Assembly (NCBI RefSeq): GCF_002088945.1
Contig: NZ_NCSU01000006.1
Location: forward strand, 62,001-126,000
Source of the DNA: Henriciella pelagia
Lineage (GTDB): Bacteria > Pseudomonadota > Alphaproteobacteria > Caulobacterales > Hyphomonadaceae
DNA: 64,000 nucleotides
Direction of reading: 5' to 3'
A program made the position numbers and the translations under genes. Below are positions 4,361 to 59,487 of the stretch, piece after piece; within the stretch, counting starts at the first letter, position 1; every line of letters begins with the position of its first letter. The notes below the pieces were generated by a model. The model saw only the letters and a list, made by a program, of their open reading frames with translations, was not told the DNA's origin and ran no database searches.

Positions 4361-4956
4361 AACAGGGGCTCGCCATTCTTCTGATGGCGTTGCCAGCCGG
4401 CCTCGCAGCCTGCGGCGGCGAAGACCGGTCCGAAACAGTTCGCCTGAAAGTCGAAGCGGCACCGGATTATATGCGCCCCGGCGACGGACCCGAGCAGGCG
4501 ACCCGTGAAATATCTGCAGAAGCGCAGGCCACAATCGACGAGCTTCAGCGGATCATTGAGACCAACTCGCTCTACCAGCTCGCAAGATTTGCCGAGGCCG
4601 AGCCCACCTTCCTGTCCAACTTTGCCGGGGCTTCGCATCGGGAACACTGGGACCTGCTGCGGCGGACAGGCTTTGACCCGATCCTGACGCTGGAAAAGCT
4701 TCTGGACGGACCGTATGGCGCAAAGATGGTGTCCGGCGAGACCTGGTATATCTGGCCTGAGCTCGCTGCTCTTGATCCGGCGGAGCTTCAGCCCCAGCGG
4801 CTGAACTTCAGCCAGCGGGCGCGCCTTGAGGAACTTGTGGGCGATACGGGAATTGCTCAGATACGGAACGGCGAGGGCTATCCTGGCGTTCGAACCGCCA
4901 TCGCCGAAGATGGCCGCTGGCTCTATTTCGTGCATGAAACAGAAGGCGAGGAATAG
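4357..4956 (+). CDS. Predicted lipoprotein of unknown function
   Basis: 199 aa starting at a GTG that overlaps the HAD stop. The N-terminus is a lipoprotein signal peptide with lipobox GLAAC (Cys19), so the product should be lipid-anchored at the cell envelope. The rest has no membrane segment and no motif I recognise; the middle (residues ~60-130) holds [14 protein letters not shown] and a [11 protein letters not shown] stretch. It sits in an apparent operon with the HAD hydrolase upstream and pterin dehydratase four bases downstream; nothing in the sequence explains that grouping. Confidence 0.8.
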
Positions 4957-16900: not shown

Positions 16901-18910
16901 GATGTGCCGGAATTCAATGGTGAACTCCGCCTGATGGCAGTGGCCTGGTCAGAGACCGGTCTTGGTGCGGCAAGCCAGCCAATGACCGTGCGCGACCCGG
17001 CCCCGGCAGACCTGATCCTGCCGCGCTTTCTTGCCCCCGGCGATGAAGCGCTTGCGACGGTCAGTATCGACAATATCGAGCTGGAGAGCGGTACGTTCAC
17101 CGCTTCGCTCGACGCGAGCAATCCGGTCAGCGTGCCGGCAAGCCAGGTATCGCGGACCATTCCGAAAGGCCAGAGGATCGATGAAGGCCTGAAGCTGACG
17201 GCCGACGCTCCCGGCATTGCGCGCCTCCGCCTCAATGTCGGCGGACCGGCAAACTATTCGGTATCGCGCAATTACATGATCCAGGCGCGCTCACCCTATC
17301 TGCCGGCAACGGAGATATCGACTGCGCTGATGGAGCCGGGTGATGCCTGGTCCATTCCGGACGACATCCTTGTCGACTATGTGCCAGGAACGGCTGAAGT
17401 CACTGTGACGTTCGCGTCGCTGCCGCTCGATGCGAATGCGCTGTATGCGTCGCTGGCGCGCTATCCTTATGGGTGTACCGAGCAGACGGTGAGCCGCGCC
17501 ATGCCGCTGCTCTACTCCGAACAGCTGGTGGCGCTCGGGGCTGATGAAGGCTCGCGCGAGCCCGCCCGTGCGCAGGTGCAGGAGGCGGTCTCCCGCGTGC
17601 TTAACCGGCAATCCAGCGACGGCTCATTCGGCCTCTGGAGCGAAGGGGATGGTCATGCATCGCCATGGCTTGGTGCCTATACGGCGGATTTCCTCTACCG
17701 CGCGAGCGAAGCGGGCTACGAAGTGCCGCAAGCCTCACTCGACCGGGCCTACACGTCTCTGCGCTCTATTGCGCAGGGCGATGCCTGGCGCGTCTATGGC
17801 TATGACACGGATGTCTGGGAAAGCCGTTGGCACGATGACACCGAAGCCAAGCTGATGCGCCGGTCTGCGCCTTATGCACTCTATGTTCTCGCCAAGGCCG
17901 GCAAGGCCGATGTGAGCCGTCTTCGCTATCTGCACGACCGTGAGATAGACAAGATGGAGAGCCCTCTGGCGCGTGCGCAGCTGGCTGCAGCCCTGTCCTA
18001 TATGGGTGACCGGTCGCGGGCCTATAGCGCCTTCACGAAGGCTGAGGAAGCGCTCGGCTACGAGAATGATGGCGACTATTACCAGACGCCGCTTCGCGAC
18101 CTGACAGGTGCGCTGGCCCTGGCTGCCGAAACCGGTTTCACGGAGCATGTCACGCGCCTCACCGAGCGGCTTGGCAATGATGCGCCAGACCCGTCCGAGC
18201 TGACCACCCAGGAAAAGGCATTCGCGCTCCTGGCGGTGAACGCCCTCACCGGTGAGGGCGAGGATATCCGCATCCAGGTTGAAGGACTTGGACGCGGCAA
18301 CAATAATGACCGCCGCTACATCCTCACCGAGGACCAGGCACAGGGCGATGTGACCTTCACGCTGGCTGGCAATTCGGCGCCGATGTTCCGGACCGTTATG
18401 GTGCGTGGCGCGCCGGCGTCCGCACCGCCTGCAGTGTCCTCGAAGGTGAAGGTGCAGAAAGCCATCCGTAGCCTCACGGGCAAGGTCGTGGATCTCGCCG
18501 ATATCCGCCAGGGCGACCAGCTCGTCGTATCGGTCGTGATCACGCCGGAACAGAACCGCACCAATCCGATGATCCTGGCCGACCTCCTGCCAGCAGGCTT
18601 CGAGATCGAGACGGTCCTGAAACCGGCCGATGGCGACAGGGATGGCGGCACCGATGGCGCATTCGCCTGGCTTGGCACGATTGACCAGCCGGACACGGCA
18701 GAAGCCCGCGATGACCGCTTCGTTGCGGCCATTGATGTCCGAGACAGGCCTGTGCGTCTCGCCTATGTCGTGCGCGCTGTCACGCCGGGCAGCTTTGCGA
18801 TCCCCGGCGTTAATGTCGAGGACATGTACCGGCCGGACGTGTTTGCGCGCTCGGCACCGGGCCGCATCACCATCGAGACGCCGAGTGCTGCGACGGGCGG
18901 TCAGAGATGA
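13955..18910 (+). CDS. Bacterial alpha-2-macroglobulin (YfhM type lipoprotein)
   Basis: 1651 aa. The N-terminus is a lipoprotein signal (LTAC, Cys23), so it is anchored in the envelope facing the periplasm. Successive beta-sandwich domains follow; the thioester motif is intact as YGCTEQT, Cys1174 to Gln1177, which in this family traps attacking proteases covalently. A helical thioester domain (~1150-1450) and a receptor-like C-terminal domain complete the plan. Start chosen at ATG 13955 with GGGAG upstream; the earlier GTG at 13928 would spoil the signal peptide. Its last four bases overlap pbpC, the classic pairing of these two genes, thought to protect or monitor the cell wall. Confidence 0.95.
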   Translation: MIGRTFKARGIILAGLMSALTACGGGDKPPQTVPEETGGQVVERSRAAQVAAERRERERQRLAAAEENKFTYFRYAPDTSGNTPRACLVFSAPLDPDVDYSTFITMRPGVRPAYNIEGRELCLEGLDFARSYTATILEGLPSDDGRAIAREEEVTISFEDRPPYVGFKGSGVILPRDNADGLAIETVNVDKVDVTVYRVNDRALAFKRIGQGEEAPQGRYSYLYGEEDPRDVSSEVWTGSMEIDNVTNAPVTTVFPLPDVIGTLQPGSYFVELNDARELNSNDGPPASARRWIMLTNLALTAYQGENGLDVTLRSLQDGEVLPNTRVQLIAYNNEVLGETQTGEDGRVRFGAPLLAGVGNSAPRMVMAFGAKGDLAVLDLTRAPIDLSEQNTGGRQTPGPVDGYIYSERGIYRPGETVHLTAMMRDRAADAISDRSGNLIVYRPNGLEADRYRFAGGDAGAIQWDFDLAGSASRGMWRVVLEVDGAGEAGSYRFAVEDFVPQRIAVELETDDGTVLKSGETKEILVDSRFLYGAPGAGLTVQAQARIEPDPAPFAAFKDFSFGRHDAYFREEIIELDDQTTDGAGKAVVRLSPGQRGADADRPLRLNTTVSVLEPGGRAVTESVRLPYRPNALYVGVKSDFDGRAKQGEENRFELAAINADGEAVDTRLNWKVIEIDYHYDWYREDGRWRWRRSRTVRTVNEGVVDTGGTTQAIAVNGLDWGQHELIVTADGSEAETSTSFYVGWGGYVSDDGVEAPDRVQVIVEDQKVVAGRPAAITVVPPYAGEAQIVVATDEIIHVETRDVSPGGTQFTLPVTEAWGEGAYVLVNVYTPRDPVVQSKPRRAVGVGYVPLDMDSRTFEVEIDAPDLVRPRREQTIDVNVTGGPREHVYLTLAAVDEGILRLTKFKDPDPVAYYFGKKSLGVEIYDDYGRLLDPNMGLPAEVRTGGDQLGGEGLTVVPTKTVALFSGLVDVGRNGKARVTFDVPEFNGELRLMAVAWSETGLGAASQPMTVRDPAPADLILPRFLAPGDEALATVSIDNIELESGTFTASLDASNPVSVPASQVSRTIPKGQRIDEGLKLTADAPGIARLRLNVGGPANYSVSRNYMIQARSPYLPATEISTALMEPGDAWSIPDDILVDYVPGTAEVTVTFASLPLDANALYASLARYPYGCTEQTVSRAMPLLYSEQLVALGADEGSREPARAQVQEAVSRVLNRQSSDGSFGLWSEGDGHASPWLGAYTADFLYRASEAGYEVPQASLDRAYTSLRSIAQGDAWRVYGYDTDVWESRWHDDTEAKLMRRSAPYALYVLAKAGKADVSRLRYLHDREIDKMESPLARAQLAAALSYMGDRSRAYSAFTKAEEALGYENDGDYYQTPLRDLTGALALAAETGFTEHVTRLTERLGNDAPDPSELTTQEKAFALLAVNALTGEGEDIRIQVEGLGRGNNNDRRYILTEDQAQGDVTFTLAGNSAPMFRTVMVRGAPASAPPAVSSKVKVQKAIRSLTGKVVDLADIRQGDQLVVSVVITPEQNRTNPMILADLLPAGFEIETVLKPADGDRDGGTDGAFAWLGTIDQPDTAEARDDRFVAAIDVRDRPVRLAYVVRAVTPGSFAIPGVNVEDMYRPDVFARSAPGRITIETPSAATGGQR

Positions 18911-28536: not shown

Positions 28537-28693
28537 TTTCTTCTCCTCCGAGTGTTTGTCGTCTTGTTGCAGCGCAACCTAGCTGGCGAGAGTTCAATAC
28601 ACCAGCCCCATTGTTGCGGCGTTTTGTGCGGACAATGCAGCTGGAACCGGCAGGCCCGGTTCTCGTTGGTCCGGCAGCGATGGAAGGCGGATA

Positions 28694-33618: not shown

Positions 33619-33708
33619 ATCGCAGGCAAGGCCCGTCTCTTCGCAGCAATCCGCAAGACTCCGGCTTGCCGGGCCCCAGAATCCGAAATAGGTAGGGCGC
33701 AGTAGCAC

Positions 33709-33920
33709 TCCTCCCCGGGAGAGAGCGGGCCTCGCCCGCCGCCGAAGGCGCAACCGCCCCGGAAACGCTCAGGCAAAAGGACCGGGGGGAGACCACACGC
33801 TGGAAAGAGGCGGGCGCAGACCAATGCGCCGACGGCCTCGCCGAAGGAGCAAGCCGCTTCGACCGCCTCATCCTGAGCGAAGTCGAAGAAGGCGGAATCT
33901 CTCAGGCGCCGAGACAGCGG
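33709..33920 (+). promoter_or_regulatory. Tandem glycine riboswitch upstream of gcvT
   Basis: Two aptamers. First (33709-33791): P1 strand CTCCCCGG, GGGAGAG, then GCCGAAGGCGCAA and CTCAGGCAAAAGGAC. Second (33798-33920): CGCTGGAAAG, CGCCGAAGGAGCAA, AATCTCTCAGGCGCCGAG and ACAGCG closing P1. These are the canonical glycine riboswitch sequences. Located in the 360-base leader of the gcv operon, it should switch expression on when glycine is abundant. The arm between GCAAG and AATCTCTCAGGC in the second aptamer is unusually long and carries a repeat-like insertion at 33857-33894. Confidence 0.95.
33857..33894 (+). repeat. Repeat-like hairpin inside the second glycine aptamer
   Basis: CTTCGAC (33857-33863) and GTCGAAG (33882-33888) are inverted copies around CTCATCCTGAGCGAAG-like sequence (from 33867). 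The wording resembles a palindromic intergenic repeat I know from Caulobacterales/Sphingomonadales genomes. It forms the peripheral arm of aptamer 2 between GCCGC and GGCGG, outside the ligand pocket. Confidence 0.6.
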
Positions 33921-56789: not shown

Positions 56790-57485
56790 CTAGCGATATT
56801 TTGCTGCCAGCTTCTGCGGGCTCGCACCGAGCAGGTAGCGAGAAATCAGCATTGCATTGTGCCAGCTGCGCTTGCGCCAGCCGTCGCGCTCATATTTGGC
56901 GGCCGACGTTCTCGCTTCCGCCGACAGGATCGATATCCGCGACTTGCCGATTTTCTGGACGATGCGCACATCCTCCATCAGTGGCAGGTCTTCATAGCCG
57001 CCGACTTCATCATAGAGTGCCCGTGGCAGGAGCAGGCCCTGGTCGCCATAGGGCAGGCCGAGCCATCTGGCCCGGCGGTTGGCTCTCGCAGCGATGCGCT
57101 TCGCCATCGGATGGTCTGACCGGTAGGCCAGGGTAAGGACAGCTGCCTTGTCTGGTCGCTCCGACAGATGATCCAGGACGCGCTCGGGCCAATCTCGAGA
57201 GAGTGCGGTGTCTGCGTGCAGGAAGAACAGCCAGTCGCCGCGCGCTATTTCAGCGCCCGCGATAAGCTGTTTTGCGCGACCTTTTTCGCCCCTGATGAAC
57301 GCCGCGCCGCTGCCCTCGGCGATCGCGGGCGTCGCATCTTCAGAGCCGCCATCCGATACGATGAGCTCGCGGATCAGGCCGGCCTCAAGGCCAGGCATCA
57401 GCGCATCAAGACAAAGCGGCAGGTCCGAGGCGGCATTCAGGGTCGGAATTATGATTGAGACCGGGGCAGGCATTGGATCGCTCAT
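56790..57485 (-). CDS. TIGR04283-type glycosyltransferase (GT2), arsenosugar-associated family
   Basis: 231 aa GT2 enzyme: SIIIPTLNAASDLPLCLDAL start, DGGSEDAT, the DxD-like FLHADTALS, and GDQGLLLPRALYDEVGGYED, which is the characteristic TIGR04283 stretch, with LMEDVRIVQKI. Partner of the TIGR04282 protein (54.6 kb); in many genomes the two are adjacent. The sugar and acceptor are not known for this organism. Confidence 0.88.
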   Translation of the reverse strand: MSDPMPAPVSIIIPTLNAASDLPLCLDALMPGLEAGLIRELIVSDGGSEDATPAIAEGSGAAFIRGEKGRAKQLIAGAEIARGDWLFFLHADTALSRDWPERVLDHLSERPDKAAVLTLAYRSDHPMAKRIAARANRRARWLGLPYGDQGLLLPRALYDEVGGYEDLPLMEDVRIVQKIGKSRISILSAEARTSAAKYERDGWRKRSWHNAMLISRYLLGASPQKLAAKYR

Positions 57486-57525
57486 AAAGCAAATGTAGCG
57501 GGCGTCGAGGTGCGCGAAACTGTCG

Positions 57526-57550
57526 GGAACGCGCTCGCCATCTCGGCGTT
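57526..57550 (+). promoter_or_regulatory. EcfG (general stress sigma factor) promoter of the hemerythrin gene
   Basis: GGAAC (57526-57530) and CGTT (57547-57550) separated by 16 bases, an exact match to the alphaproteobacterial EcfG/SigT consensus. It ends 36 bases before the hemerythrin start codon, giving a leader of about 30 bases. Confidence 0.75.
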
Positions 57551-57586
57551 CTGGAAGCGTAACAACTTTTCAGGAGTACGCCGAAC

Positions 57587-58063
57587 ATGTCCACTATCTA
57601 CGAAACCCTCAAGCAGGATCACGACCGCCACCGCCAGCTCCTGGCGTCGATTGCGGACACGAGCGGCGATTCAGAAGAGCGCCGCGAGCTGTGGGACAAG
57701 TTCTTCCACGATGTCAGCGCCCATGCCGCTGCCGAGGAGGAGACCTTCTATTCGAAACTGATCTCGACTGAAGACGGACAGCCTGAAGGTCGTCACTCCG
57801 TTGCCGAGCACAAGGAGATTGACGACATGATCGAGGAATTGAACGAAATCGAGTTTTCCAGCCCCGCCTGGCTCGCCAAGTTCAAGGAAATGCGTGACCG
57901 CTACGAGCACCATATTGACGAGGAAGAAGAAGACATCTTCCCCGTCGCCCAAGAAAATATCGGCAAGGATGGAACCGGAAAGATCGGTTCGGCGTTTGAG
58001 AAACGTAAGGAAGCTGAACTCGAGCTTGTTGAAGAAAAAGCCGAGGAAAAGCTTGAAGAGTAG
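57587..58063 (+). CDS. Hemerythrin HHE-domain protein
   Basis: 158 aa. The di-iron ligands are recognisable: His12 (QDHDRH), His46 and Glu50 (AHAAAEE), His75 (AEHKEID), and His109 with Glu113 (HHIDEEE). Such proteins bind or store oxygen, NO or iron and help in oxidative stress. The C-terminus (~125-158) is a highly charged Glu/Lys helix. It is expressed from the EcfG promoter at 57526. AGGAG lies ten bases upstream of the ATG. A candidate small RNA lies directly downstream. Confidence 0.92.
   Translation: MSTIYETLKQDHDRHRQLLASIADTSGDSEERRELWDKFFHDVSAHAAAEEETFYSKLISTEDGQPEGRHSVAEHKEIDDMIEELNEIEFSSPAWLAKFKEMRDRYEHHIDEEEEDIFPVAQENIGKDGTGKIGSAFEKRKEAELELVEEKAEEKLEE
57971..57996 (+). promoter_or_regulatory. 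EcfG-type promoter match inside the hemerythrin gene
   Basis: GGAAC (57971-57975) and CGTT (57993-57996) with a 17-base spacer, also allowed for EcfG promoters. It could drive the downstream RNA (58124-58203). Being inside coding sequence, it may be chance. Confidence 0.4.
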
Positions 58064-58099
58064 ATTGAGTTAGGACGTGGAGCCGGACTGCACATCCGC

Positions 58100-58203
58100 C
58101 AGACCGTCTTAAGTCCAGGGCGAGCAAAGTTCCCCCTCCTTTGCCGCCCCCATCAGAAGCCCGGTGCGTTACCTCCCCCTCCTCAGCGCACCGGGCTTTT
58201 TTG
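58100..58203 (+). ncRNA. Candidate small RNA with two anti-Shine-Dalgarno hairpin loops
   Basis: Two hairpins follow each other. Hairpin 1: GCAAAG (58124-58129) with CTTTGC (58139-58144), loop TTCCCCCTC. Hairpin 2: AAGCCCGGTGCG (58157-58168) with CGCACCGGGCTT (58187-58198), an 18-base loop and a T run, i.e. a terminator. The 10-mer TCCCCCTCCT occurs at 58131-58140 and again at 58174-58183, in or overlapping both loops, and is complementary to AGGAGGGGGA, a Shine-Dalgarno sequence. This is the plan of alphaproteobacterial C-rich-loop sRNAs (GsrN, cuckoo/alpha-r14 types). The 5' end is unknown; the RNA may be processed from the hemerythrin mRNA. Confidence 0.6.
58157..58203 (+). terminator. Rho-independent terminator of the hemerythrin/sRNA transcript
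   Basis: 12-bp perfect stem AAGCCCGGTGCG/CGCACCGGGCTT, 18-base C-rich loop, and TTTTTT after the stem. Doubles as hairpin 2 of the candidate RNA. Confidence 0.95.
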
Positions 58204-58257
58204 TGGATTTTTGCGGCGGAGCTAGCGCTTCAAGCCTGAAGTGTGGAAAATAGTGAC

Positions 58258-58409
58258 TTCACTGAGTTCACGGTTGGCGGGCCAGTAACCTTGTGACGAA
58301 TACCCCACAGGCCGCGGACCAGTTTGCTGAGCGAGCAGCCGCTCGACGACCTGAGGACTCCAAACCCTGCGCAAGTTCATACCCCCTTCTTCTGAATCGG
58401 AGGAATGAG
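58258..58409 (+). repeat. Direct repeat, copy 1 (shortened)
   Basis: Nearly identical to 59173-59352. It starts CACTGAGTTCACGGTTGGCG and ends GGAATGAGC. A stretch of about 30 bases present in copy 2 (after CCAGTAACCTT) is missing here, and scattered single bases differ. Part of the remnant region. Confidence 0.9.
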
Positions 58410-59172
58410 CTACGCATCGCCGGGAGTGGTTTGACCGTCATGTCGAAACCGACACCGTGCCCGGCGAGCCCGCCTCCTCTCGCCAATACGGGTTCCGGCT
58501 TACAGAAGATTTTGCGGTCGTGGTTTCGATTGTTCCGAATGAACTGGGGATGCCGGAAGTCGAATGGACGCCGCTCAGACGTCTCAGGGATCGAGATCGG
58601 GGCGGGGATATTTACGCTCCGGGTACTGGCCAGCTCAGCGTTGAGGATGCCCAGCGGCTACCCGTCCTTCTGGCCGCGACCCTTGAGCATGACATTGAAA
58701 ACATGTCGCGGCCTGCCCATTCTTATATTCCGGCCCGCCCTACACTGATGAAGATTTACGAGAGGCCGAGAGGCTTGGCCACCTCCACCTTTATCGCGGA
58801 ATGCTGTCGCGTGCCGCAGCCGAAGGATACGAGTATCATGAAACGGATGAAGGTCAGTTCTATATCCTCCGAGACGGGGCAACCATCCACAGGTCAAGAG
58901 GCGTCATCCCGTCAGGCACGGCCCCAGACGCTCCGGGAGGGAGCGACGCTGGAACGCCAGACACAGACGCCTTCATCGCGCGCATCCGGTCCCGTGAACC
59001 ACTTACCCGGCCTGACCGAAGAGATGGCGCAGGAGATACTGGACAGAATGGACGACTAGATCAGTCCCAGCCCGTCTTCTTCTCGGCCCTCCAGCGCTTT
59101 GTGGAGGACGCCCAGCAGCCCAAGGCTCCCGCTGATCAATGGAAGGCCATATCGTGGGACCGCCAGCGACTT
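58404..59172 (+). pseudogene. Frameshifted, probably mobile-element-derived gene remnant
   Basis: A frame with no start runs WFDRHVETDTVPGEP...EHDIENMSRPAHSYIPARP to ~58740; the sensible continuation, TDEDLREAERLGHLHLYRGM...YEYHETDEGQFYILRDGATIH, is in another frame, so a 1-2 base indel lies near 58735-58745. A further piece, FFSALQRFVEDAQQPKAPADQW (59075-59150), resembles a segment I recall from phage/ICE large polyvalent proteins; this is a weak memory match. Bounded by direct repeats on both sides. Not a functional gene. Confidence 0.55.
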
Positions 59173-59352
59173 CACTGAGTTCACGGTTGGCGGGCCAGTA
59201 ACCTTTAAATCATCTGCCGGCGACGTTGAAGTGTTTGTGCCGATTACCCCACAGTCCGCGGACCAGTTTGCTGAGCGAGCAGCCGCTCGACGACCTGAGG
59301 ACTCCAAATCCTGCGCAAGTTCATACCCCCTACTTCTGAATCGGGGGAATGA
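59173..59352 (+). repeat. Direct repeat, copy 2 (longer)
   Basis: Second copy of the repeat at 58258-58409, with the extra ~30 bases. In one frame it reads DFTEFTVGGPVTFKSSAGD, then VPITPQSADQFAERAAARRPEDSK, which may be a piece of a coding segment shared by both copies. The tail 59353-59487 is gene-free. Confidence 0.9.
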
Positions 59353-59487
59353 GCGAAGCGCCTCGCAGTTCGAGCTGGTTCAGGATTACCAGGTGTGACA
59401 GCGGATGATCTCCGGACATTTCTTAGTCACCTTCGTGAAAAGGGATATAGAAGCGTGACTATTTCTGCGAAGGCGACGGCATAAGGA

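Follow-up and report, generated by a model that had tools for sequence, protein, structure and literature searches.

Analysis of a 64,000-nucleotide (nt) stretch of the Henriciella pelagia genome (the window; 64 kilobases, kb) showed that a small regulatory RNA very probably lies behind, and partly inside, a gene coding for a hemerythrin HHE-domain protein of 158 amino acids (positions 57587–58063, plus strand; Pfam PF01814, E 6.5e-18). The predicted primary transcript of about 200 nt would run on the plus strand from about 58003, a start placed by the −10 element of an EcfG-type promoter within the hemerythrin reading frame, to a terminator near 58203, and its fold points to the same unit. 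It is very likely that the locus holds a conserved structured RNA and, nested in the gene, a stress promoter for it, and we consider it probable that this is an EcfG-driven small RNA (sRNA), embedded in the 3′ end of a hemerythrin gene that is itself under stress control, and that it lowers the translation of its targets. The preliminary description of this DNA had reported twin hairpins with C-rich loops behind the hemerythrin gene, an observation that is confirmed here, and had interpreted them as a stress-induced, translation-repressing RNA, an interpretation that the sequence comparisons below partly support.

RNA folding of positions 58100–58203 gave −45.3 kcal/mol (z −7.85), with none of 200 shuffled sequences folding as well. 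Hairpin 1 (about 58067–58115), which was absent from the preliminary description, carries the apical loop CTGCACA at 58088–58094 and was delimited by fold and conservation, and it is followed by hairpin 2 (58118–58149), delimited by fold and alignment, and hairpin 3 (58155–58202; stem-loop 58155–58200), all on the plus strand. The 10-mer TCCCCCTCCT occurs at 58131–58140 and 58174–58183 on the plus strand, and neither strand of the window holds a further copy; this count of two compares with a shuffle mean of 0.11 and was reached in none of 100 shuffles. Hairpins 2 and 3 had each been described as displaying this 10-mer; both are indeed stable, but the last two bases of the first copy (CT, 58139–58140) are paired in the stem, so that the open loop of hairpin 2 is limited to 58130–58138 (TTCCCCCTC), and the second copy lies wholly inside its loop. 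Hairpin 3, proposed as a terminator, has the form of a typical intrinsic terminator with a C-rich 14-nt loop (58171–58184) and six T (58197–58202); a terminator scan of 57400–58500 gave none, as it accepts loops of 3–8 nt only, and a sigma-70 promoter scan of the same region also found none. Both C-rich loops were predicted to be equally open in the short RNA, in a 3′-end product and in the whole messenger RNA (mRNA).

Conservation of the element was surveyed in 29 Henriciella genomes and in a family sample of 105 genomes. The family search gave 54 hemerythrin orthologues, comprising 14 from Henriciella and 40 from other genera, and 16 of the latter were fetched and examined. The hairpins stood directly behind the stop codon in all 14 Henriciella genomes possessing the gene, and the 15 congeners lacking an orthologue gave no strong match to the element. 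Twin hairpins were found behind none of the 16 orthologues fetched from other genera, two of which (L033, L039) had a single short C-rich stretch after the stop codon. A nucleotide search of the genus with the element gave clear matches in genomes G000 and G026 only, with three others at E 0.02–0.06 over 18–26 bases, and by itself would suggest little conservation; inspection anchored on the orthologues and a covariance model corrected that impression. The model was built from 10 of the 14 sequences, those of G002, G007, G023 and G024 being omitted for a divergent hairpin 2, and it also recovered these four. A covariance search across the Hyphomonadaceae had been suggested as a check on the element, and among the 105 genomes the model matched at E ≤1e-7 in the 14 hemerythrin-bearing Henriciella and in no other genome, while 23 genomes were matched at E ≤0.1. 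The weak matches inspected lay in nine further genomes (E 0.001–0.06), with four secondary matches: L063, L064, L069 and L070 had C-rich loops, L061 and L062 less clearly so with pyrimidine-rich stretches, L067 and L068 were the opposite strand of the element, and the rest resembled plain terminators. Two of these nine genomes were congeners without the hemerythrin gene that bear a different C-loop element.

The stems of the element vary in a compensatory manner. In the 14-row alignment, from which the opposite-strand match L027 was excluded by a stricter threshold, two-sided changes occurred in 19 of 38 base pairs and 92.9% of cells were paired, in comparison to at best 11 pairs and 49.1% when the alignment was slid by 1–3 columns, and none of 500 shuffles reached the observed values. 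Because the alignment was fitted to the structure of the covariance model, these pair counts lean towards that structure, and the slid controls remove this bias only partly. Hairpins 2 and 3 hold 16 of the 19 pairs with two-sided change and the inner stem of hairpin 1 hardly varies. The core CCCCUC was found inside the loop or bordering it in 13 of 14 sequences for hairpin 2 and in all 14 for the terminator (27 of 28 loops; loop lengths 6 to 21), counted in loop windows widened by two to four columns, so that the core can extend into the stem. Conservation of both loops together with compensatory stem changes, which had been named as potential support, was observed at the level of this core, and the pattern of C-rich loops kept while stems vary, as expected of cuckoo-type RNAs, applies to hairpins 2 and 3 and not to hairpin 1.

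The loop of hairpin 1 is nearly fixed in sequence, with CYGCACA in 12 of 14 genomes and CCGAACA and CTTCACA in the other two. Its 13-mer GGACYGCACATCC had 41 matches in 36 of the 105 family genomes, 12 within the element and 29 elsewhere in comparison to eight for the reversed pattern, and the matches outside the element are therefore not simply at control level. Eight of these 29 were read; seven lie inside open frames of at least 117 codons and one (L170) in a terminator loop. This last case, in a genome from another genus of the family (G034), consists of an EcfG-type site (1257–1282), a short open frame and a terminator (1497–1530) about 220 nt behind the site, whose loop CCGCACA within GGA/TCC equals the apical motif of hairpin 1. 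It is a single case found after the fact and is given as a lead and no more.

Two exact EcfG-type promoter motifs were identified at the locus on the plus strand. The internal promoter (GGAAC-N17-CGTT, 57971–57996) lies within the hemerythrin frame, which thereby hosts both the predicted promoter and the 5′ part of the RNA, and the outer promoter (GGAAC-N16-CGTT, 57526–57550), which was absent from the preliminary description, is 61 nt before the hemerythrin start. Both agree with the GGAAC and CGTT elements of sigma-T in Caulobacter (PMC5869019) and with the canonical EcfG elements AAC/CGTT (PMC8103513). The motif GGAAC-N16/17-CGTT had five matches in the window against 1.0 expected, a number reached in none of 100 shuffles; the other plus-strand sites are at 4865–4890, 17387–17412 and 28643–28667. 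The genome encodes two copies of NepR, which serves as the anti-sigma component in the general stress system.

An internal promoter at 57971–57996 had been proposed, and its motif is not only exact but also conserved at the nucleotide level in all 14 Henriciella orthologues, and it was found in none of the 16 fetched from other genera. A second orthologue set (the best 80 of 245 loci; nine Henriciella and 71 others), scanned for the internal site from nt 250 of the frame, gave nine of nine and none of 71, respectively; as the two sets overlap, the 0/16 and 0/71 are not independent. The outer promoter was more widespread, occurring in all 14 Henriciella, 11 of the 16 other orthologues and 33 of the 71. 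The internal GGAAC is written in two codon registers, as GGA ACC (Gly-Thr) with a spacer of 17 in two genomes and as GGG AAC (Gly-Asn) with a spacer of 16 in 12 genomes. Additionally, the codon of Ala-136 is GCG in all 14 Henriciella, and the alanine is kept in six of the 16 relatives as GCC (five) or GCT (one). The shifted codon register with its compensating spacer is the best single argument for the predicted internal promoter, and the case for that promoter is strong but not overwhelming given that the genomes are related. A crude test for a C-rich hairpin loop after the stop codon was positive in five of the 71 other orthologues of the second set (L106, L121, L122, L123, L127), and inspection found no internal promoter in these five. 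At L123 (Sagittula salina), two hairpins with C-rich loops, the second of which is a terminator (ACCCTCCCC), stand after position 2474 behind a hemerythrin orthologue that has an EcfG-type site upstream, possibly an independent case. In Novosphingobium (L121 and L127), the hemerythrin orthologue is followed by hairpins whose loops are C-rich (CCCCCACC).

A working model can be proposed in which stress frees sigma-EcfG from NepR, after which sigma-EcfG would transcribe the whole hemerythrin mRNA from the 57526 promoter and, from the site at 57971–57996, the RNA of about 200 nt, which would begin near 58003, extend across the stop codon and finish at the terminator near 58203. Processing of the mRNA 3′ end may yield the same 140-nt core as well. 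The two open CCCCUC loops would be available for pairing with G-rich ribosome-binding regions (GAGGGG type) in other mRNAs, which would most likely lower the translation of these targets in stress, and hairpin 1 with its nearly fixed loop could serve as a separate contact, either as an additional seed for pairing or as a site for a protein or an RNase. We infer transcription, stress control, pairing, repression and the direction of the effect from promoter motifs, fold, covariation and loop conservation, which are themselves found directly in the sequences and their comparison.

Candidate targets were sought by scanning the genome for AGGAGGGG-N3-9-ATG, which gave 12 sites in comparison to four for the reversed pattern. 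Frames read at these sites would encode MscL, a voltage-gated channel, a SulP transporter and a Yip1-like membrane protein. A conserved target site was not found for either candidate followed through the genus (mscL and L181), and no target is claimed for the RNA. The mscL gene was found in 26 of 29 Henriciella genomes, and as that of most RNA-bearing genomes is only 53–57% identical to the query, its orthology is unsure.

Several observations weigh against the proposed sRNA. The element is found in one genus only, and as its 14 genomes are related, 14 of 14 does not amount to 14 independent events. Random synonymous recoding, with codon usage pooled from the 14 frames themselves, yields the internal motif in 3.6–4.2% of cases per protein, and the synonymous-conservation ratios in the promoter and downstream codons (0.51–0.67) are only mildly stronger than those elsewhere (0.55–0.89). 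With respect to the loops, that of hairpin 2 in G023 lacks CCCCUC, and the expectation that the 10-mers themselves would be conserved in relatives was borne out for the CCCCUC core but not for exact TCCCCCTCCT, which only G000 (in both loops) and G026 (in one) retain. Among the candidate targets, GAGGGG stands within 30 nt before the mscL start in three of 14 RNA-bearing genomes and in none of 11 readable RNA-less genomes (a twelfth was unreadable), and L181 exists in only two of 29 genomes.

The proposed sRNA can be carried further to a dual sigma-EcfG output, in which the hemerythrin mRNA would be accompanied by a three-module RNA with hairpin 1 as a specific contact and the twin CCCCUC loops as a broad translational brake. 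Such an RNA might replace GsrN as the post-transcriptional stress arm in this Henriciella lineage, the coding sequence having been bent to keep the promoter (Thr/Asn exchange, fixed GGG/GGA and GCG codons). This extension is offered tentatively.

Alternatively, the C-rich loops may bind another partner, such as a G-rich sponge RNA, or may activate targets as GsrN does katG rather than block ribosome sites. KatG reportedly rises with GsrN. It has been put forward that GsrN on the katG leader could recruit the ribosome (PMC5869019), and the C-rich SisA–D RNAs pair with the sponge CrfA (PMC12559287); the lack of a conserved ribosome-site target among the two candidates followed would also fit such a role. 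The likeness of CCCCUC to the anti-Shine-Dalgarno loops found in NfeR1-type RNAs (PMC10746234) speaks, by analogy only, for ribosome-site blocking, and a different partner or mode of action is regarded as unlikely. The element might instead be no more than a structured 3′ end with which the hemerythrin mRNA terminates, its stems kept for termination and mRNA stability with no separate RNA. This would agree with its position immediately after the stop codon, in a gene that has an EcfG-type promoter itself, and with the typical terminator formed by the last hairpin. A terminator, however, has no need of a second hairpin or of C-rich loops, and the CCCCUC loops persist while stems change, the twin hairpins are missing behind all 16 of the other family orthologues fetched and the internal promoter tracks the element, which together render this explanation improbable. 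Cutting of the sRNA from the hemerythrin mRNA by RNase E, with the internal GGAAC–CGTT as a by-product of coding, has a precedent in CcsR, which is co-transcribed with the small protein gene ccaF1 and matured by RNase E (PMC10253847), and about 4% of random synonymous recodings of the protein produce the motif, but it is made very improbable by a GGAAC kept in two registers with compensating spacer through a Thr/Asn change and by the absence of the internal motif from all 16 and all 71 relatives examined in the two overlapping sets.

The preferred reading of a promoter-driven sRNA nested in the hemerythrin gene has wider implications. Some EcfG-controlled sRNAs of R. palustris and B. diazoefficiens have been proposed from place and promoter alone (PMC5869019). 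For the Henriciella candidate there is also covariation, together with a promoter traceable through a reading frame in two registers, in bacteria with cultured strains, and a role of anti-Shine-Dalgarno RNAs in the general stress response therefore becomes directly testable. The case also illustrates how such RNAs can be concealed within annotated genes, their promoters escaping a search confined to intergenic DNA.

Other features were recorded in the course of this survey. Right behind the RNA element, a direct repeat occupies 58252–58415 and, about 0.9 kb apart, 59165–59359 (identity of 94% over 125 nt and of 98% over 41 nt), resembling a duplicated remnant, and a glycine riboswitch aptamer is present elsewhere in the window (33706–33794, 64.4 bits). 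A second two-hairpin element, whose C-rich loops read CCTCCCCCTT and CTCCTCCCTTCT and whose second hairpin resembles a terminator, was found in G000 (L070 1501–1621; G000:C2:806127-806247) and G026 (L069), the only two of 29 congeners by nucleotide search, with no strict EcfG-type site in the fetched stretch. The gene nearby presumably encodes an enoyl-CoA-hydratase-like protein. In Henriciella without a hemerythrin orthologue (L063, L064, L175–L178), a hairpin with a C-rich or pyrimidine-rich loop and a terminator stand behind a reading frame, with ACCCTCCCTCTCAC in three of four, clearly in four of 29 genomes and marginally in a fifth. No Rfam match at E ≤1 was obtained for L063, L064, L069 or L070.

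Comparison with known systems began with Rfam, which gave no match at the locus at the gathering threshold. The best match was ar14 (RF02344; 34.6 bits, E 0.00018 in 1.2 kb), below its cut-off of 58.8, and seven of nine Henriciella loci searched, out of the 14, matched ar14 at E ≤1 (26.3–35.6 bits), the other two giving no match. Further sub-threshold matches, to STnc500 (19.0, other strand), ar7 (18.9), RybB (18.3), Pseudomon-1 (16.3), sR44 (13.1) and CcsR1 (12.7), were judged to be chance, as were those of L020 to Scr3202 (32.2, cut-off 52) and anti-hemB (21.6, cut-off 49.5). Searches of the open-licence PubMed Central (PMC) literature found no paper linking hemerythrin with EcfG and the general stress response, and nothing related on small RNAs of Henriciella.

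To our knowledge MicL, MicX and DapZ carry no twin anti-Shine-Dalgarno loops. They are 3′-end sRNAs made from promoters inside coding sequence, MicL in a sigma-E-dependent manner (PMC9438474), and the Henriciella element resembles them in its predicted promoter inside a reading frame, its start being placed by the motif, and in deriving from the 3′ end of a gene, but these RNAs come from E. coli, Vibrio and Salmonella and depend on other sigma factors. CcsR1–4 of Rhodobacter (CIN1 locus) are co-transcribed behind the small protein gene ccaF1 under a stress sigma factor and matured from its transcript by RNase E (PMC10253847). The Henriciella RNA likewise lies behind a small protein gene with a promoter of the stress sigma factor type; however, Rhodobacter has an RpoHI/RpoHII promoter and a DUF1127 protein, in comparison to EcfG-type promoters and hemerythrin in Henriciella. 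DUF1127 had no match among the six proteins scanned around the locus, where the gene in front is the PF01814 hemerythrin, and CcsR1 (RF02791) scored 12.7 bits against a cut-off of 65.3.

GsrN of Caulobacter combines a sigma-T (EcfG) promoter with GGAAC/CGTT, an exposed C-rich loop and a terminator (PMC5869019), an arrangement shared by the Henriciella element, with its EcfG-type promoter directly upstream (57971–57996; motif in 14 of 14), exposed C-rich loop and terminator. The comparison was made by loop position, promoter and gene place. In GsrN the C-rich loop is in the 5′ hairpin, whereas in Henriciella the 5′ hairpin carries CTGCACA and the C-rich loops are 3′ of it. GsrN homologues are mostly near phyR-nepR-ecfG, C. 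crescentus excepted, whereas the Henriciella element is on contig C13 of a 16-contig assembly in which C3 and C5 carry the nepR copies. No GsrN-like unit was found in 3.1 kb around each nepR, where the strict-motif scan gave one site, standing before what we assume to be a protein gene.

The cuckoo/alpha-r14 sRNAs (NfeR1, SmelA075) are stress-related series of hairpins with C-rich anti-Shine-Dalgarno CCUCCUCCC loops and fast-changing stems (PMC3927594, PMC10746234). The likeness to this group that had been proposed is real, as the Henriciella element is also a hairpin series with C-rich loops and variable stems and ar14 is its best match, but it does not extend to membership, given the score of 34.6 against 58.8 bits and the composition of the loops: ar14 is defined by three hairpins each with an unpaired CCUCCUCCC, and the three hairpins are present with CCUCCUCCC in none of the 28 loops of hairpins 2 and 3. 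The Henriciella loops are instead CCCCUC-based, the 5′ hairpin carries CYGCACA and the whole is nested in a hemerythrin gene. As ar14 fails by score and loop motif, GsrN by loop position and place and CcsR by neighbour and score, the element was filed under none of them. A mode of action like that of the cuckoo/alpha-r14/GsrN RNAs is the best reading by analogy, and the Henriciella element is interpreted as a variant of the anti-Shine-Dalgarno sRNA kind rather than as a formal ar14 member.
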